Source: Sedimentibacter sp. SX930 (GTDB taxonomy: Bacteria > Bacillota > Bacilli > Lactobacillales > Aerococcaceae). From it: a DNA stretch of 64,000 bases. The notes beneath the pieces were generated by a model. It did not search any database. It worked only from the letters and a program-made list of their open reading frames with translations, and had not been told where the DNA came from. The stretch is from NCBI GenBank assembly GCA_002155105.1, contig MUZD01000004.1, positions 124,001 to 188,000 on the forward strand. Direction: 5' to 3'. Of the stretch, positions 50,390 through 61,478 are shown one piece after another. Made by a program: the position numbers and the translations under genes. How positions within the stretch are numbered: the stretch's first letter is position 1; every line of letters begins with the position of its first letter.

Positions 50390-52264
50390 TTATTCCCCTA
50401 GTATCTTCATGAACTCCGCACCGGTGATGGTTTCTTCGACCAGCAGGAAGTGGGACAGCTCATGCAGCTTCTCGCTGTTTTCATTCAATATGGAAATGGC
50501 TTTTTCGTGAGCCTGCTTGATGATGTCCAGCACTTCGCGGTCGACCTGCTCGGCCATCCCGGAGGACACATTCATAGAAGTGTCGCCGCCCAAGTATTTG
50601 TTCGTCTGGGTTTCGATCTGCATCATGTCGAACGTGTCGCTCATCCCATAGCGCGTAATCATGGCGCGCGCCATCCGGGTCATCTGCTCAATATCGTTAG
50701 AGGCTCCGGTCGTGATGCTGCCGAAGACGATCTCTTCGGCGGCGCGGCCACCTGCCAAGGTGACGATTTTGTTGAACAGTTCCTGTTTCGTCATCAGCGA
50801 TTTTTCGCCTTCTTCGATCTGCATCGTGTAGCCCAAAGCACCGGAAGTGCGCGGAATGATGGTGATCTTGTGGACCGGCGCGGATTCCGTCTGTTTGGCT
50901 GCGACCAGCGCATGACCGATTTCATGGTAAGATACGATTTCCTTTTCTTTCGGTGAAATGACCGCGTTCTTGCGTTGGTAACCGGCGATGACGGTTTCCA
51001 CCGACTCTTCCAAATCACTTTGGGTGACGGCGTTGCGGCCTTCACGGACTGCTCGCAGGCCACCCTCGTTGATGATGTTCGCCAATTCGGCACCGGAAGC
51101 ACCGGATGTGGCGCGGGCAATCGTATTGTAGTTGATGGAAGGATCCATCTTGTAGTTCGTTGCATGCACTTTCAGGATGGCTTCGCGTCCTGCCAAGTCC
51201 GGCAGTTCGACCGGTACGCGACGGTCAAAACGACCCGGGCGCAGTAGGGCAGCGTCAAGCGATTCCGGCCGGTTGGTGGCGGCCAGGAGGATGATGCCTT
51301 TATTGGCTTCGAAACCGTCCATTTCCGCCAGCAGTTGGTTCAAGGTCTGCTCACGCTCATCGTTACCCCCGCCGTAGCCGCCGTTATCGCGTTTCTTACC
51401 GATCGTGTCGATCTCGTCGATGAAGACGATACATGGGGCTTTTTCGTTGGCTTCCTTGAAGAGGTCGCGGACTTTGGCGGCGCCGCGTCCGACGAACATT
51501 TCGACGAATTCGGAACCGGATATGCTGAAGAACGGCACATCGGCTTCGCCTGCGACAGCGCGGGCCAAAAGGGTTTTACCAGTTCCTGGAGGTCCGACAA
51601 GCAGGATGCCTTTCGGATTCTTGGCACCGATATCCTGGTATTTTTTCGGTTGATGCAGGTAATCGACGACTTCGCTGAGTGCTTCTTTGGCTTCGTCCTG
51701 TCCGGCGACATCCTTGAATGTTTTCGAATCGCCTGCCTTCACGTAGACTTTGGCGTTCGACTTGCCGAATGACAAGGCGCCACTGGCTCCGCCGCCCATC
51801 CGTTTCGCCATCTGTTTGCCTAATAGGCTACCCAATCCCCAGAACAGCAGGAGCGGTAAGACCCAAGAAACCAAGATGGAAAGGATCGGGGAGGCTTCAG
51901 TCGGGATGTCCTTGCTGAAGGTCACATCGGCTTCTTCCAAGCGGGTGACGAGTGTCGGATCATCGATCAGGCCGGTCATGTAGACTTGTTTGTCGCCCGC
52001 GTCATCGGTCGCTACGAAGGTGATTTGGGTATCCTCCAGTTTGACCTCGGATACGTCACCCGCCGATACCTGGTTCAGGAACGTGCTGTAGGTCACTTCC
52101 TCCACGCTTCGGTTCATGTAGCTAGGCAACACGAAATAGTTCAAAAACATCAGGACGCTCAATGCCATCAACAAGTAATAGGCTGTCGTTCTGCGTTTAT
52201 CGGGGTTTTCGTTATTCAAATTCAGATTCCATTTTCGATTGTTTTTATTTTTATCATCTGCCAT
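50390..52264 (-). CDS. ftsH: ATP-dependent zinc metalloprotease FtsH
   Basis: A membrane-anchored AAA+ protease that degrades misfolded membrane and regulatory proteins. The 624 residues show two N-terminal membrane helices (about 26-48 and 126-148) flanking a small extracytoplasmic domain, Walker A at 224-231 (GPPGTGKT), Walker B (CIVFIDEID), the second region of homology ([11 protein letters not shown]) and the zinc motif HEIGH at 447-451. Most FtsH proteins read HEAGH; the Ile variant keeps all zinc ligands. Coupling to a marR gene, rather than tilS-hpt, suggests a specialised second FtsH. Start GAGG spacing is good. Confidence 0.94.
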
Positions 52265-52274
52265 TTATGTTTGT

Positions 52275-52730
52275 TCAATCCTCTCGTTGTTGTTCGTTCA
52301 TTTCCTCTATCAGAAGCTGCAGTTCCTTGATGCCGGCAGAAATTTTTTCAAGCCGCTCTTCGGATACGCCTTCCATCAGCGAGCAGTATTTGCTTTCGAT
52401 ATCCTGCTCCATTTTCTGAAGGATCGCTTGGCCATTCGGAGTGAGTTTCAGCGTGATGAAACGCTCGTCGTCCGCGCGCCGCTCCCGCGTGAGATAACCT
52501 TGCTGTTCCAGTTTTTTGCAGATGGTGGAGACGTTGCCGTTGTTCATATCCATCACTTTCGCCAAACGGTTGAGTGACAGATCTTCGCTCAGCTTGATTT
52601 CCATCAAAATCCGCAATTGCAGCGGGGTGATGCAATAGTCTTTAGCGACCGGGCACGTCACGGTATCCTTGGAAACTTGGATGGTCCGCATCAGATCCCA
52701 GATCTCTTTTTTTAAAAAATCAATTTTCAT
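52275..52730 (-). CDS. MarR-family transcriptional regulator
   Basis: A 151-residue winged-helix regulator upstream of and probably controlling ftsH (10-base gap). The family core is clear: CITPLQLRILMEIKLSEDLSLNRLAKVMDMNNGNVSTICKKLEQQGYLTRERRADDERFITLKLTPNGQAIL, here in parts (QLRILMEI, NVSTICKKLEQQGYLTR, RADDERFITLKLT). An AAAGGAG ribosome-binding site precedes the ATG. Palindromic and direct AATAGTT motifs overlap its own promoter, pointing to autoregulation. Two Cys residues (near 20 and 27) could sense thiol stress; this is speculation. Confidence 0.92.
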   Translation of the reverse strand: MKIDFLKKEIWDLMRTIQVSKDTVTCPVAKDYCITPLQLRILMEIKLSEDLSLNRLAKVMDMNNGNVSTICKKLEQQGYLTRERRADDERFITLKLTPNGQAILQKMEQDIESKYCSLMEGVSEERLEKISAGIKELQLLIEEMNEQQRED

Positions 52731-54845: not shown

Positions 54846-54866
54846 ATCATAAGTTAAACCTATGAT
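54846..54866. promoter_or_regulatory. Putative LysR operator of the isomerase-transporter operon
   Basis: A 21-bp palindrome with half-sites ATCATA and TATGAT (T-N11-A type). It matches, at about four in five positions, the palindrome between lysR and acnA. It is centred about 30 bases upstream of a -35 box, the normal place for an activating LysR-type regulator. Confidence 0.75.
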
Positions 54867-54884
54867 TCTGATAAAAATGATTGA

Positions 54885-54914
54885 TTGGATATTTGGCTAG
54901 CCAGAAACTATACT
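54885..54914 (+). promoter_or_regulatory. Putative promoter of the isomerase-transporter operon
   Basis: TTGGAT (54885-54890), 18 bases, TATACT (54909-54914). Weak boxes fit a promoter needing an activator. The leader to the start codon is about 120 bases and shows no riboswitch-like fold. Confidence 0.55.
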
Positions 54915-55042
54915 TCAGATATCAAGTTGAGTAATGAGCAATCAATAGAACTGCAGTCTATAGGAACTTGTTACTAAAAGGATTCAACTGGATAAATACA
55001 AATCCATGGATATATGAAAACGCAAACATTTGGAGGGACGAT

Positions 55043-56179
55043 ATGTTAAGAGAGCTACAATGCAGCATCTTTCGCGGTGGCACAAGCAAAGGTGCATTCG
55101 TAATGGAAGAAGATTTACCGGAAAACAAAGAGGAACGTGATCAGATCCTATTAAAAATCATGGGCAGCCCTGATCAACGCCAAATTGATGGTTTGGGTGG
55201 GGCAGTCTCCACAACCAGTAAAGTCGCCATAATTTCAAAAGAAACAACCGAAGATTGGGATGTCAATTATACATTTGCGCAAGTTCAGATCGATAAACCT
55301 TTTGTCTCCTATGCAGGGAACTGCGGGAACATTTCATCTGCAGTAGGAGTCTTCGCACTTGAAAATAATCTGGTGGATATTACCTCCCCAATCACGACTG
55401 TAAGAGTATATAATACAAACACAAAGAAAATCATTCACGAGCATATCCCCACTCCAAACGGAGAAATCACTTATGAAGGAGACTTCAGCATTTCGGGTGT
55501 TCCAGGAACTGGCTCGAAGATCGAATTGGAGTTTTTGAATCCGGAAGGTTCCTTCACCGGCAAGTTGTTGCCGACGGGACAAACCAAAGACGTGCTGAAA
55601 ATCGAAGATTACGGCGATGTCGAAGTATCGATCGTCGATGCGGCAAACCCGCTGGTGTATGTCAAAGCAGAAGCTATCGGTTTTGCAGGAACAGAGACGG
55701 CGGCCATGATTGACGCAGACCCGGCCAATCTGGTGCTGTTGGAAAAAATCAGGGGAGAAGCAGCAGTCAAAATGGGCTTGGCCGATAATTGGGAAGAAGC
55801 CGCTACGGTGACGCCAGGAGTACCGAAAATGACTATCGTGTCAGCAGCGCAGGATTTCATTACGGACAGCGGGAAAGAAATAAACGCATCCGAATATGAC
55901 CTTTCCATCCGGATGATGAGCATGCAGAAAGCCCACAAAACCATCGCTTTGACGGGTGCTTTGTGCACAGCCGCAGCCTGCGCAATCCCGGGCACTATCC
56001 CGAATGAAGTTTTGGGGAACGAAAATGTGAAGAACGAGCTCGTGCTTGGGCACAGCGACGGCCTCATTTCGGTAGCCATGAAGTACAAAAATGAAGATGG
56101 AACGATAAAAATCGAATCCGTATCGAGTCACCGGACCGCGCGAAAAATCATGGTCGGTAAAGTCTTCTATAAAGGATAG
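55043..56179 (+). CDS. PrpF-family isomerase (aconitate/methylaconitate type)
   Basis: A 378-residue member of the PrpF family, which moves double bonds or isomerises cis/trans tricarboxylates such as 2-methylaconitate and aconitate. Family features: FRGGTSKGAFV near the start, a conserved Lys60 in STTSK and Cys94 in AGNCGNISSAVG. ATG 55043 has GGAGGG at a normal distance; the upstream ORF extension is unsupported. Its operon partner is a CitMHS transporter and an aconitase gene lies next door. I infer conversion of trans-aconitate to a substrate of aconitase. Alternatives: 2-methylaconitate isomerase, or an oxalomesaconate-type tautomerase. Confidence 0.85.
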   Translation: MLRELQCSIFRGGTSKGAFVMEEDLPENKEERDQILLKIMGSPDQRQIDGLGGAVSTTSKVAIISKETTEDWDVNYTFAQVQIDKPFVSYAGNCGNISSAVGVFALENNLVDITSPITTVRVYNTNTKKIIHEHIPTPNGEITYEGDFSISGVPGTGSKIELEFLNPEGSFTGKLLPTGQTKDVLKIEDYGDVEVSIVDAANPLVYVKAEAIGFAGTETAAMIDADPANLVLLEKIRGEAAVKMGLADNWEEAATVTPGVPKMTIVSAAQDFITDSGKEINASEYDLSIRMMSMQKAHKTIALTGALCTAAACAIPGTIPNEVLGNENVKNELVLGHSDGLISVAMKYKNEDGTIKIESVSSHRTARKIMVGKVFYKG

Positions 56180-56208
56180 AAATAACACAAAGAATAGGAA
56201 GTGTTGAA

Positions 56209-57585
56209 ATGATAGCATTGTTAGGCTATGGAATGATCGTTACCTTCATGGTTTTGTTATTGACCAAAAAAATGTCACCTTTTGCAGCATTAATTTTAGT
56301 TCCCGTTGTTTTTGGTTTAGCCGCAGCATTTATAAGTGGAACACCACTTTTGGAAGTATTTGATTGGATTTTTGGAGGTTTGTATTACTCGCTGGATGAG
56401 AACAAGACACTTATCAGTAAAGGTGTGGCCCCAACAATCACGTTATTGCTGTTCGCTATTCTTTACTTCTCGGTTATGTTGGACGTCGGTCTATTCGATC
56501 CCTTGGCTACGAAGATGATCAAATGGGCAAAAGGCGATCCAATGAAGATTTGTGTCGCAACTGGTGTTATCTCTCTAATCGTGTCGCTGGATGGTGACGG
56601 GACAACGACTGTGTTGATCGTAACGACAGCAGTTCTGACGCTTTTCAAAAAAATGAAGATGAACCAGCTTTACTTGGCGGTAATCATCGGATTCAGCAAC
56701 TCGGTAATGAACTTAGTCCCTTGGAGTGGCCCGATGGCGCGTGCGATGCCGGTGCTGAACTTGACACCGAAAGAATTCTTCGTACCCGTTATTCCAGGTA
56801 TGATCGGTGCAACAATCCTGGCATTGTATATGTGCTACTACTATGGTAAAAAAGAGCGCGCTCGTCTGGGCTATACAGCGGAGGGCGGCATCATCCATGA
56901 CAGCGACTTGGAACACATCATTAAAGAAATCAACGAAAAAGATGCGTATTTGAAACGCCCTAAATTGATTTGGTTCAACTTTATCCTTACAGCGGCAATC
57001 ATGACAATGTTGATCATGGACGTCATCAATGGCGGTATCCTCTTCGTGCTTGGTACAGCCATCGCGTTGCTGGTCAACTACAGACAGTTGAATTTGCAAT
57101 CTTCCCGTTTGATTGCAAATGGTGGAGAAGCATTAGGTCCAGTAAGTTTGGTTTATGGAGCAGGTATCATCATGGGTGTTCTGAACGGCAGCGGCATGAG
57201 TGAAGCCATCGCACAACAAATGGCTGGCATGATTCCAGAAACTATGGGTGCCTACATTCCTTTCTTTCTGGCTTTGATTTCTTTACCTGGTTTGTTCTTC
57301 TTGCCAAATGACGCTTTCTATTTCGGTATCCTGCCGGTATTGGCACCAATCGCTTATCAATACGGTGCAACACCGACTGAAATCGGTGTCGCTTCCATGA
57401 TGGGTCAAGCCATCCGTTTTGCAAGTCCCTTAGTGGCCTTCCTTTATGTTTTGGTTGACAGAACAGAAGTCAGCTTTGGTGATTACTCAAAAGAATACCT
57501 GAAATGGGGTCTTCCAAGCTTTGTGATCCAAACAGTCATCGCCATTCTGATCGGTGCGATTCCGTTGCCTTTCTTGTTTAATTAA
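56209..57585 (+). CDS. CitMHS-family tri/dicarboxylate transporter
   Basis: A 458-residue polytopic membrane protein with about 11-12 helices. The sequence resembles the CitM/CitH metal-citrate symporters (SLDGDGTTTVLIVTTAVLTLFKKM, in parts; FSNSVMNLVPWSGPMARAM; LFFLPNDAFYFGILPVLAPIA). The family carries citrate complexes and, in some members, tricarballylate or aconitate. It follows the isomerase by 29 bases with AGGAAG upstream, so both should be co-transcribed. The stop is only three bases from the end of the convergent lysR gene with no terminator between. Confidence 0.88.
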   Translation: MIALLGYGMIVTFMVLLLTKKMSPFAALILVPVVFGLAAAFISGTPLLEVFDWIFGGLYYSLDENKTLISKGVAPTITLLLFAILYFSVMLDVGLFDPLATKMIKWAKGDPMKICVATGVISLIVSLDGDGTTTVLIVTTAVLTLFKKMKMNQLYLAVIIGFSNSVMNLVPWSGPMARAMPVLNLTPKEFFVPVIPGMIGATILALYMCYYYGKKERARLGYTAEGGIIHDSDLEHIIKEINEKDAYLKRPKLIWFNFILTAAIMTMLIMDVINGGILFVLGTAIALLVNYRQLNLQSSRLIANGGEALGPVSLVYGAGIIMGVLNGSGMSEAIAQQMAGMIPETMGAYIPFFLALISLPGLFFLPNDAFYFGILPVLAPIAYQYGATPTEIGVASMMGQAIRFASPLVAFLYVLVDRTEVSFGDYSKEYLKWGLPSFVIQTVIAILIGAIPLPFLFN

Positions 57586-57588
57586 TCA

Positions 57589-58497
57589 TCAAACGACTTC
57601 CCGGCAAAGGTCAATCAAGGTTCTGATATAAGGAGGCAGCTTACGCCCTTTGCGGTAAGCCACAATCATATCGGCATAATGTGGCTTACCCTCGAAAGAG
57701 AAAAAGCGCGGAGCGTTGCCGAATTTCAGGTGACGGATATGGGTCTCATTCAAGAAGGAGATGCCATATCCCGTCATCGTCAGATTGACTGCTGTCTCGA
57801 TATTCCGCGTATGCGTCACTTTATTTGGGATGAAATGATGTTCCGCGAAGATTGCTTCGGCGATCTGGCCGGTACGCTGATCGGGGAAATGCAGAATGAA
57901 CCGATCCTTTTTGAACAAATGCAGATCAATGGAAGGGTAGCTGCTCTTCGGATTAGGCTTCCCTTGATTGATGCAAGGATGTCCTGAGGGCACAGCCAAC
58001 AGGATCTCTTCCGATTTGATGATTTCAAAGTCCAAATTCAACGCGTGATGCGGCATATTCATGATTGCGATATCCGCCTCACCATTGTTGATTTTTTCTT
58101 CTACAACTTTGGAAGATTCTTCGAGCAATTCGACTTCGATATTTGGGTAGATTTCATTGAACTTCGGCAAGATATCCGGAGCCAGATAGGAGCCGCGCAT
58201 GAATGGAATGGAAACGCGCAGACGGCCGATTTTGTTGTCCAATATATGGGCAGCTTCATCGTAAAAGTTTTCGCGCATGCGCAGAATCTCGATTCCGGCA
58301 GCCAAAAAACGTTCACCAAGGAAAGTCAGTTCGTATTTCTTTCCGATTTGATTGAAGACTGGAAATCCCAAGCGGGCCTGCATGTTTTTGATGTACATGC
58401 TCAATGAGGGCTGTGAGATGTAAAGAGACTCAGCTGCCCTTGTCAAACTGCCGCAGTCGTTGATCGCCTTCACGTATTCGATATCTTTCATTTCCAT
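57589..58497 (-). CDS. LysR-family transcriptional regulator of the tricarboxylate module
   Basis: A 302-residue LysR-type regulator: N-terminal winged helix (YVKAINDCGSLTRAAESLYISQPSLSMYIKNMQARLG in parts; SQPSLSMYIK recognition helix) and an effector domain of the usual length. It lies between the isomerase-transporter operon and divergent acnA. AGGGG lies before the ATG. A 21-bp palindrome between it and acnA, repeated before the isomerase operon, is its probable binding site. The effector is probably a tricarboxylate; this is inferred. Confidence 0.93.
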   Translation of the reverse strand: MEMKDIEYVKAINDCGSLTRAAESLYISQPSLSMYIKNMQARLGFPVFNQIGKKYELTFLGERFLAAGIEILRMRENFYDEAAHILDNKIGRLRVSIPFMRGSYLAPDILPKFNEIYPNIEVELLEESSKVVEEKINNGEADIAIMNMPHHALNLDFEIIKSEEILLAVPSGHPCINQGKPNPKSSYPSIDLHLFKKDRFILHFPDQRTGQIAEAIFAEHHFIPNKVTHTRNIETAVNLTMTGYGISFLNETHIRHLKFGNAPRFFSFEGKPHYADMIVAYRKGRKLPPYIRTLIDLCREVV

Positions 58498-58511
58498 AGA
58501 ATCATCCCCTT

Positions 58512-58532
58512 ATCATAAGTTTTGGTTATGAT
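58512..58532. promoter_or_regulatory. Putative LysR operator between lysR and acnA
   Basis: Palindrome ATCATAA-N7-TTATGAT, extended by T/A on both sides. It serves the divergent lysR (start at 58497) and acnA. Its centre is about 30 bases above a -35 box, the same as at the isomerase operon. Confidence 0.78.
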
Positions 58533-58551
58533 ATACATAAAAAATATATAT

Positions 58552-58580
58552 TTCATTTATGTTTATTATAGGGATACAAT
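58552..58580 (+). promoter_or_regulatory. Putative promoter of acnA
   Basis: TTCATT (58552-58557), 17 bases, TACAAT (58575-58580). The -35 is weak, as expected for an activated promoter. The start codon lies about 40 bases after the likely transcription start. Confidence 0.5.
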
Positions 58581-58626
58581 CACACTAAGTAAATACAAGA
58601 ATTTAAAATTGGAGAGGTACTATACT

Positions 58627-61320
58627 ATGAACAGCAAGCAGAAATCAATCAAAACCATCAATACAAATGGGAAGGAGTATAAGTACTACGATCTGAAATC
58701 ACTGGAAAATGGACAAGTGGCGATCGCCAAATTGCCATATTCCATCCGTGTCTTGCTGGAAAACTTGTTGCGACAAGAGGACGGCAAAGTCATCACCGAA
58801 CAACACGTCCTGTCCTTAGCCAACTGGAAACCTGTAAACGAAGTGAAAACTGAGATCCCCTTCAAACCATCCCGTGTCATTCTGCAGGATTTGACAGGCG
58901 GAGCGGCGATTGTGGATTTGGCGGCCCTGCGTTATGTGACCGATAAATTGGGTAAAGATTCCGCGATCATCAATCCGGACATACCAGTGGATTTGGTGAT
59001 TGACCATTCCGTTCAAGTCGATTACTCCGGATTCAATGATGCCTTCAGAATGAACGCGGAAATTGAGTTCGATCGGAACCGCGAGCGTTACGAATTCTTC
59101 AGCTGGGCGGAAAAATCGTTTGATTCCTTCAGTGTGGTGCCGCCAGCGACAGGAATCGTTCATCAGGTGAACTTGGAATACCTGGCGGACGTCGTGAAGG
59201 AAGCTGAAGCCGATGGGGAAACTATCCTCTACCCGGATACTTTGGTCGGAACCGATTCGCATACGACAATGATCAACGCTTTGGGCGTGCTTGGTTGGGG
59301 CGTCGGCGGTATCGAAGCGGAGGCAGGTATGTTGGGTCAACCGTGCTACCTGCAGATGCCGGATGTCGTTGGCGTACGCTTCACAGGCAAGCTTCAAAAT
59401 GGCGCAACCGCGACCGATTTGGCTTTGAAAATGACGCAAGTATTGCGGGAGCAAAAAGTGGTCGGGAAATTCGTCGAATATTTCGGCGAAGGTCTGAAAA
59501 ACCTGACGATCGCCGACAGATCGGTCATCGCCAACATGGCACCGGAATATGGTGCGACTTGTGGTTTCTTCCCGGTTGATGACGAAACATTGGGCTATCT
59601 GCGCTTCACCGGCAGAGAAGATGCGAAAGTCGATAGGATCGAAGCCTATGTCAAAGCGAACAACCTTTTCTACAATGATGAAATCGAACCGGAGTATTCA
59701 GAGCTGATCGAAATCGACCTTTCAACAGTGGAACCAAGCTTGGCCGGTCCGAAAAGACCGCAGGATTTAGTGAAACTGTCCGATGTCAGCCAGAAATTCA
59801 AAGAGGCATACGCCGCGCCGATGGGAAATCAAGGTTATGGGTTGGATGCAGCCGATATCGACCATAAAGTTACCATCACTTATGAAGACGGCTATCAAGA
59901 AGAAATGGAAAACGGAGCCGTATCGATCGCAGCCATCACCAGCTGCACGAACACAAGCAACCCGTACCTGATGCTCAGCGCGGCTTTGTTGGCAAAAAAT
60001 GCGGTTGAAAAGGGATTGTCCGTCAAACGCTACGTCAAAACATCCATGTCGCCGGGATCGAAAGTGACGGCGCGCTATTATGAAAAATCGGGCTTATTGC
60101 CTTATCTGGAAGCATTGGGCTTCAATATCATCGGCTACGGCTGCATGACTTGCGTAGGCAACTCCGGACCGCTGAGACCGGAAGTCAGCGAAGCGGCCAA
60201 AGAGGGCAACATCCTGCTTTCGGCTGTATTGAGCGGGAACCGCAACTTCGAAGGACGCATCCATGCGGAAGTGAAAGCCGGCTACTTGGCAGCGCCGCAC
60301 TTGGTCATCGCTTATGCCTTAGCTGGAAACGTCAAAGTGAATCTGGCCACCGATCCGATCGGGACAGACAAAGAAGGGCAGCCTGTCTATTTCAAGGACA
60401 TTTTGCCTAGCAATGAAGAAGTCCAGAAAGTCGTGAATGAATCGGTTCTGGCGGATATGTTCAAAGAAGAATACCGTTCCGTATTCGACTCGAACGACTT
60501 GTGGAACAAAATCGAATCAGCAGATAAACCGGTCTACGACTGGAATGCCGATTCGACTTATATCGCAAATCCGCCATACTTCGAAAACTTCCAATTGGAA
60601 ACAGAGCCGATTACGACCCTGAAAGGATTGCGCGTTTTAGGGAAATTCCAGGACTCGATCACAACCGACCACATTTCACCGGTTGGAGCCATCGCAATGA
60701 AGTCTCCGGCTGGAAAATATCTGATGGAGCATGGCGTGAAACCGAAGGACTTCAATTCGTATGGCAGCCGCAGAGGACACCATGAAGTAATGGTGCGCGG
60801 TACCTTCTCGAATATCCGCCTGAGAAACGCTTTGGCTGACGGACTGGAGGGTGGATTCACCAAATACATCCCGACCAACGAAATCATGCCGATTTTCGAT
60901 GCCAGCGTGAAATATAAAGAAGATGGCACCGGCTTGGTCATCTTGGCCGGAGACGACTATGGAATGGGATCTTCCCGCGACTGGGCAGCAAAAGGCGCCA
61001 GACTGTTGGGCGTCGATGCGGTCATCGCCAAGAGTTTCGAACGGATCCACCGCTCCAACCTGATCATGGTGGGTGCGCTTCCGCTGGAATTCCTGAAAGG
61101 CGAAGATGCGGACACGCTGGGATTGACCGGCTTGGAAGAGTACGCAATCGCAATCACGGATGAGGTAAAACCGAATGAAGTGATCACTGTGACAGCGCAA
61201 GCTGCGGATGGAACGGAAAAAACATTCCAAGCAATCGCAAGGCTGGATTCTGAAATCGAAATCGACTACTACCGCAACAAAGGAATTTTGCCGATGGTGC
61301 TCAGAAACAAGATCAAATAA
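58627..61320 (+). CDS. acnA: Aconitate hydratase AcnA
   Basis: Interconverts citrate, cis-aconitate and isocitrate through a [4Fe-4S] cluster. The 897 residues are the AcnA/IRP1 type: cluster cysteines Cys440 (TSCTNTS), Cys506 and Cys509 (GCMTCVG), the substrate motif [19 protein letters not shown] in parts, and a C-terminal swivel domain with [19 protein letters not shown] 58627 is chosen since GGAGAGG lies 9 bases upstream; the ORF extension crosses the promoter. No citrate synthase or isocitrate dehydrogenase accompanies it here. This isolated acnA, tied by a shared operator to the PrpF/CitMHS genes, points to a catabolic rather than full TCA role. Confidence 0.96.
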
Positions 61321-61388: not shown

Positions 61389-61432
61389 AATACGCAAAAA
61401 GCAGGCCCGTAACAGCCTGCTTTTTGCGTATT
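61389..61432. terminator. Strong inverted repeat between convergent genes
   Basis: An 18-bp perfect stem (AATACGCAAAAAGCAGGC and complement) with an 8-base loop. T-runs occur within the stem on either strand. Probably ends acnA. Confidence 0.78.
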
Positions 61433-61439
61433 AAACTGA

Positions 61440-61478
61440 AAAAGAGGCAACCTCAAAAAAAATGAGGTTGCCTCTTTT
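61440..61478. terminator. Terminator of the amino-acid ABC genes (bidirectional)
   Basis: A 16-bp stem AAAAGAGGCAACCTCA/TGAGGTTGCCTCTTTT. On the minus strand it follows the permease stop and is trailed by a T-run. Confidence 0.88.

Follow-up and report, generated by a model that had tools for sequence, protein, structure and literature searches.

A prpF-citMHS-lysR-acnA cluster of Trichococcus as a probable inducible module for trans-aconitate catabolism

We analyzed a window of 64,000 nt from the 3.13-Mb genome of Sedimentibacter sp. SX930 (G000 below), in which a 6.3-kb cluster carries prpF and citMHS on the plus strand, lysR on the minus strand and acnA on the plus strand (Table 1). All coordinates are positions in this window unless a locus is named, and the genome is placed in Trichococcus on the basis of its nearest named record, T. 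pasteurii, whose PrpF is 97% identical. The families, promoter features and relatives of these genes suggest that the cluster is probably an inducible trans-aconitate catabolic module under LysR control. The prpF and citMHS genes lie 29 bp apart and are probably one transcript, citMHS and lysR converge with a gap of 3 bp, and lysR and acnA diverge from a 129-bp intergenic region. The ATG of prpF at 55043 is preceded by GGAGG, and a longer open reading frame starting with TTG at 54968 is less likely than this start.

Table 1. Genes and promoter features of the cluster, with positions in the 64,000-nt window
Feature	Position	Strand	Basis or remark
LysR-type box A, 21-bp palindrome ATCATAAGTTAAACCTATGAT	54846..54866	+	upstream of prpF
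Putative -10 TATACT, prpF promoter	54909..54914	+	53 bp from box A centre; conserved spacing
prpF-family isomerase, proposed aconitate isomerase	55043..56179	+	Pfam/NCBIfam; K60 and C94 align with Shewanella PrpF
CitMHS-family tricarboxylate:cation symporter, proposed trans-aconitate importer	56209..57585	+	Pfam/NCBIfam; CitMHS tree
LysR-type regulator	57589..58497	-	Pfam/NCBIfam: HTH_1 and substrate domain
LysR-type box B, near-identical 21-bp palindrome ATCATAAGTTTTGGTTATGAT	58512..58532	+	between lysR and acnA
Putative -10 TACAAT, acnA promoter	58575..58580	+	53 bp from box B centre; ties with TATTAT at 42 bp
AcnA-type aconitase, dedicated paralogue acnA1	58627..61320	+	ATG start; Pfam/NCBIfam; aconitase tree

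Profile searches upheld the four family assignments of the initial annotation, i.e., PrpF, CitMHS, LysR and AcnA. The PrpF-family protein scored 447.5 bits against PF04303, and in support of an isomerase its catalytic lysine and cysteine are kept, K60 and C94 corresponding in the alignment to K73 and C107 of Shewanella PrpF. Variants of K73 fail every growth test and variants of C107 fail only the stringent one (PMC5690661). The transporter reached 394.6 bits on TIGR00784, the model of CitMHS citrate:cation symporters, and so exceeds its cut-off of 259.7. Both the HTH_1 and the substrate domain were found in the regulator. The aconitase passed TIGR01341 with 1342.5 bits against a cut-off of 945, and its iron-sulfur (Fe-S) cysteine motifs are kept, as read by eye in an alignment to IRP1/cytosolic aconitase. 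A GCMTC motif at these cysteines was dropped as a cluster-specific feature because human IRP1 has the same motif.

The use of trans-aconitate by a LysR regulator, an isomerase and an importer is already known in principle from TarRAB, described in 2024 for assimilation of this compound by Bacillus velezensis FZB42 (PMC11495376). We compared the cluster with the Bacillus siamensis locus L130, in which tarR (861 bp), a gap of 173 bp, tarA (1131 bp), a gap of 43 bp and tarB (1377 bp) equal the published lengths and gaps of FZB42. The window PrpF is identical to this TarA orthologue at 178 of 377 positions (47%), which favors an aconitate isomerase, and the two systems further share a LysR regulator and a transporter gene directly after the isomerase gene. 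However, TarB belongs to the major facilitator superfamily and the window transporter to CitMHS, with no detectable similarity between the latter and the TarB orthologue. The window LysR is 26% identical to TarR over 152 N-terminal residues, the rest being unalignable, and is no TarR orthologue. Furthermore, tarR is divergent from tarA with a shared promoter, whereas the window lysR is convergent with citMHS and lies between citMHS and acnA; TarRAB has three TTATAA motifs where the window has a 21-bp palindromic box; and the window cluster has an extra, dedicated aconitase.

It was found that the genome holds six sites with at most one mismatch to the palindrome, boxes A and B included, and 36 sites with at most two mismatches versus 10 for the backwards-read pattern that served as a control. 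With up to three mismatches, the window contained 5 sites versus 4.98 expected from shuffles, i.e., no excess; the case for the palindrome is therefore made by the two closest matches, by where they lie and by how well they are conserved, and not by the count of loose matches. Nine genus copies were read, that of the window and those of eight further genomes (L053 and L083 belong to a single genome). In these copies box A precedes the ATG of prpF by 176-179 bp, and box B lies beyond the start of lysR by 13-15 bp. In the window this last distance is 15 bp, so that autoregulation by LysR is likely. The proposal that a shared palindrome binds four compact genes together is thus borne out by two of the genome's six closest sites and by their conservation. 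A further site, at G000:C19:213150-213170 (L002), matches both palindrome arms exactly.

A weight matrix from ten distinct Trichococcus sites was run over seven loci outside its training set: a metagenome-assembled genome (MAG, L084), Streptococcus orisasini (L085), S. devriesei (L087), S. ratti (L090), Enterococcus 669A (L086), Enterococcus HY326 (L089) and Clostridium 12(A) (L088). In five of the seven (L084, L085, L087, L090 and L086), the top-scoring site of the entire 10.9-19.1-kb locus falls upstream of the operon. Out of 2000 base shuffles of the upstream stretch, the observed score was reached by 0 in L084, 19 in L085, 6 in L087, 49 in L090, 36 in L086, 270 in L089 and 252 in L088. The streptococci L085, L087 and L090 are closely related and do not count as independent cases. 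We also compared hexamers of the form NANNNT at 35-75 bp from the box centre, leaving out L088 and L089. The -10-like hexamer that starts 53 bp downstream of the centre reads TATACT at box A in all nine genus copies, TACAAT at box B in seven of nine, and TATAAT in the streptococci and L084. This hexamer is best or tied best at 20 of 23 sites; the distance in L086 is 54 bp, and at box B of L052 and of L059 another hexamer is best. At box B it ties with TATTAT at 42 bp in six of seven sites. A sigma-70 scan found 9 promoters versus 10.2 expected and a terminator scan 6 versus 7.3, neither above chance, so the -10 assignments rest only on the conserved spacing. The architecture of a box and a spaced -10 is conserved across genera, which supports a regulated module, and a hexamer 53 bp from the box centre puts the box at about -65, where LysR-type activators usually have their recognition site. 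Ahead of prpF in Clostridium sp. 12(A) there are, in place of the LysR box, three palindromes (L088:8191-8962) that are nearly identical and of the type TTGTATACAGGTATACAAT, and the 19-kb locus L088 holds no gene matching the window LysR, which suggests that a different regulator took over prpF there.

The LysR protein would bind both boxes, which lie some 65 bp ahead of the predicted starts of prpF-citMHS and acnA, and would co-activate both transcripts, probably with trans- or cis-aconitate as its ligand. The same genes could instead serve synthesis and export, as does TbrAB of Bacillus thuringiensis: AcnA would convert citrate to cis-aconitate, PrpF would convert this to trans-aconitate, and the transporter would export it. 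The direction is not given by the genes alone, the isomerases favor trans-aconitate in vitro, and TarA and TbrA are interchangeable (PMC11495376). Compared by its description, TbrAB shares a PrpF-family isomerase and a transporter with the window. However, the exporter TbrB is of another family (Transporter Classification 2.A.7) than the window transporter, which falls in the citrate:proton symporter subfamily, and no aconitase or LysR is mentioned with TbrAB in the available part of the article (PMC11495376). In addition, the core genomes asked carry citrate lyase (see below), and LysR boxes on both transcripts would resemble substrate induction; we regard synthesis and export as quite unlikely. 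A plasmid search aimed at a TbrA copy returned 341 records, all below 60% identity, with no Bacillus among the 40 listed.

In a family and order sample of 60 genomes, own genome included, PrpF (E <= 0.001) was found in nine, namely our own and 8 of 11 other members of the genus, and in 0 of the 48 genomes from the rest of the family and order. The four-gene order is kept in all eight other genus copies. A second aconitase gene, acnA2, occurs in all 12 genus genomes, and acnA1 in nine of them, the identical set that carries prpF, as would be expected of an enzyme tied to the module. The three genomes without the cluster are G003 and G010, both about 99% complete, and G007, which is only 51% complete, so that the absence there weighs little. 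In a midpoint-rooted AcnA tree, acnA1 of Trichococcus and the aconitases of two Enterococcus stand on one side of a 100/100 branch, opposite acnA2 and 29 class aconitases (the nearest were kept), although acnA2 and L197 form long branches for which the program warns of false joining. The acnA1 gene is a dedicated paralogue. Aconitase is inhibited by trans-aconitate (PMC13188880), and a second aconitase may have been retained for this reason; alternatively, acnA2 may simply serve glutamate synthesis and be regulated for that.

The AcnD-PrpF variant of the 2-methylcitrate cycle is typified by PrpF paired with a dehydratase of the aconitase family (PMC5690661), and the cluster might therefore serve propionate metabolism. 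However, the window aconitase scored 789 bits on the AcnD model, against a cut-off of 1419.85, and is not AcnD. The sole citrate synthase of G000 lies in a separate acnA2-citZ-icd operon, which leaves no dedicated PrpC, and the sole phosphoenolpyruvate-mutase/PrpB-family match in this genome, at 27.5 bits, is below the cut-off of 31.5. A 2-methylcitrate cycle is largely refuted by these results and highly improbable, in agreement with the initial annotation, which had considered this classic function less likely. Its suggested genome search for prpB, prpC and citrate lyase yielded neither a PrpB above cut-off nor a dedicated PrpC, and did yield citrate lyase.

Within a class sample, some PrpF was found in 38 of 398 genomes, own included, and the closest outside the genus are 47-50% identical. 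Named relatives were taken from the best 80 loci of one contig scan, the nearest being T. pasteurii at 97% identity, and trees were built on 44 (PrpF) and 41 (CitMHS) chosen rows. Eight of these 80 loci (L083-L090) form one PrpF clade and one CitMHS clade, both with 100/100 support, and have citMHS directly after prpF in every case; beyond Trichococcus, the genera of this core are Enterococcus, Streptococcus and Clostridium. The third enzyme is swapped inside the clade. Trichococcus and two Enterococcus have AcnA. Clostridium 12(A) has a YbhJ-type hydratase (NF008503, which we take to be the family carrying that name), as does MAG L084, where the gene is cut by the contig end. The three streptococci have an MmgE/PrpD protein, apparently encoded first in the operon, which was identified with Pfam in L085 and through 92 and 96% identity to the L085 protein in L087 and L090. 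The streptococcal protein passes no PrpD equivalog cut-off. Since the AcnA and MmgE/PrpD families include enzymes that hydrate aconitate or a methyl analogue and YbhJ belongs to the aconitase superfamily, the common denominator is likely cis-aconitate, and we count the swap in favor of an aconitate module. The MmgE/PrpD family also holds a cis-aconitate decarboxylase, which makes the step in the streptococci the most uncertain. Across the best 80 loci, a BLAST match to AcnA, YbhJ or MmgE/PrpD lies within 5 kb of prpF in 34 and is missing in 46, the latter including some where the contig ends. A YbhJ-type hydratase gene is located no more than 5 kb from prpF in L093, L094, L096, L097, L100, L102, L106, L107, L110, L114 and L137. 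These eleven loci come from Lachnospiraceae, Erysipelotrichaceae, Cetobacterium and others, ten have a LysR match, and they are likely a wide family of aconitate modules.

Elsewhere in G000, a citrate fermentation cluster encodes a GntR regulator, subunits of oxaloacetate decarboxylase and of citrate lyase, the citrate lyase ligase and a separate CitMHS. This second CitMHS is 43% identical to that of the window, and we count its presence in the lyase cluster in favor of the proposed reading. The citrate lyase gene citF is present in 11 of 11 genus genomes (G007 left out) and in 7 of 7 core genomes (MAG L084 left out; T. pasteurii is included and so is counted in the genus set too), which suggests a route from trans-aconitate through cis-aconitate and citrate to acetate and oxaloacetate. 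In the proposed mechanism, the CitMHS symporter would import trans-aconitate, and the PrpF-family protein, judged by its family, catalytic residues and identity to the TarA orthologue, would isomerize it to cis-aconitate. The dedicated AcnA, an aconitase by its sequence, would hydrate this to citrate or isocitrate. Citrate lyase, for which the genes are present, would then cleave citrate to acetate and oxaloacetate, the latter being decarboxylated, and Icd, whose gene lies in the operon of acnA2 and citZ, could oxidize isocitrate to 2-oxoglutarate. The flow of import, isomerization and hydration that had been proposed at the outset is consistent with the family assignments and the shared boxes. 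Two other loci place a PrpF gene near citrate fermentation genes. In G222 (C3:54148-62683), the gene of a 39% identical PrpF lies 6 kb from a full-length citrate lyase alpha gene on the same contig. In G008 (L060, 5427-13901), the gene of a second, 36% identical PrpF has as its neighbors a PucR-type regulator gene and a citrate fermentation cluster with oxaloacetate decarboxylase, CitX, CitG and CitMHS.

Several results weigh against trans-aconitate as the substrate or against the module as described. The window PrpF fails the cut-off of TIGR02334 (2-methylaconitate isomerase PrpF; 316.5 bits versus 440.55) and that of NF033377 (4-oxalomesaconate tautomerase GalD; 363.1 bits versus 440); the B. 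siamensis TarA orthologue is likewise below the PrpF and GalD equivalog cut-offs. A gallate-type tautomerase was rejected on the GalD score. Enterococcus HY326 and Clostridium 12(A) did not yield the box ahead of prpF, the best match there ranking 6 and 7, respectively, within its locus, and neither of the two Enterococcus loci showed a box in the region from lysR to acnA. Full-length citF (>600 bits) occurs in 9 of 398 class genomes, eight of them in the order of the window (tallies of 135 and 77 for this sample include short partial matches). It is also present in the near-complete, cluster-free G003 and G010, and among the 38 class genomes with PrpF the full-length gene occurs only in our own and G222. 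Citrate lyase thus appears to be a setting for this version of the module and not a marker of it.

The substrates of PrpF-family proteins vary, and the transporter family is named for citrate. The closest solved chain to the window PrpF is 3-methylitaconate isomerase (307.8 bits), followed by Shewanella PrpF (260.9) and E. coli YbhH (248.4). The cluster could therefore act on another tricarboxylate or branched dicarboxylate, i.e., on citrate or isocitrate with a side role for PrpF, on methylitaconate or dimethylmaleate, or on tricarballylate, and the streptococcal MmgE/PrpD, with its missed cut-offs and the other activities of its family, would fit this too. However, AcnA scores as a true aconitase, citrate is already served by the CitMHS of the lyase cluster, plain citrate or isocitrate would leave PrpF without a role, and the four cluster genes, to which this search was limited, include no tricarballylate oxidase. 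Such a substrate is unlikely, and we favor trans-aconitate.

Outside the cluster, two successive perfect inverted repeats with arms of 18 and 16 bp lie downstream of acnA (61389-61478) and are probably terminators. Beyond them, on the opposite strand, is a gene for a polar amino-acid ATP-binding cassette permease, whose best NCBIfam match, a cystine permease, is below cut-off. On the minus strand at 50390-52730, a MarR-family regulator gene is directly followed by an FtsH-type protease gene.

Other known loci resemble the cluster in part. Bacillaceae loci such as that of B. altitudinis (L158) combine the same three families, PrpF, LysR and CitMHS, but there citMHS lies behind lysR, both are divergent from prpF, and PrpF and CitMHS belong to other clades; no aconitase was found within 5 kb of the L158 prpF. 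The B. subtilis genes of this type carry the name yraMNO. The Clostridium hydratase in L088, through its fit to NF008503 (presumably YbhJ), provides a likeness to ybhD-ybhHI-ybhJ of E. coli. This set likewise combines a LysR regulator, a PrpF-family protein, a putative tricarboxylate transporter and ybhJ, but the transporter is likened to a 2-oxoglutarate/malate translocator, and the genes were tentatively tied to L-malate (PMC9068703). Our sequence comparison with it was limited to the solved YbhH chain. Acidaminococcus fermentans ferments trans-aconitate via citrate, oxaloacetate and pyruvate, the same route as proposed here (PMC3035267); the comparison is by route alone, and that article names no isomerase. 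In an open library, no literature linking Trichococcus with aconitate was found, and aconitate isomerase was absent from the listed matches (titles and abstract starts) on lactic genera, citrate lyase and LysR. New relative to the available part of PMC11495376 are CitMHS as the proposed importer, an aconitase dedicated to the module and the exchange of this enzyme among relatives, a box that is conserved together with its spacing, and fermentation as the likely route.

More tentatively, the prpF-citMHS core may be a mobile trans-aconitate module into which three cis-aconitate consumers (AcnA, YbhJ-type and MmgE/PrpD) have been slotted. This possibility, which we hold as doubtful, would include an AcnA lineage that is perhaps trans-aconitate-tolerant and kept because the housekeeping aconitase is inhibited, and a YbhJ family, with that of E. 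coli ybhHIJ, of cis-aconitate hydratases. If trans-aconitate is the substrate, its use would extend to lactic-acid-type fermenters, and CitMHS would be a candidate for the further trans-aconitate transporters called for in PMC11495376. YbhJ-type hydratases would gain a concrete candidate function, and a trans-aconitate-tolerant dedicated aconitase would be useful for aconitate production. Finally, trans-aconitate derived from grasses would be linked to citrate fermentation.

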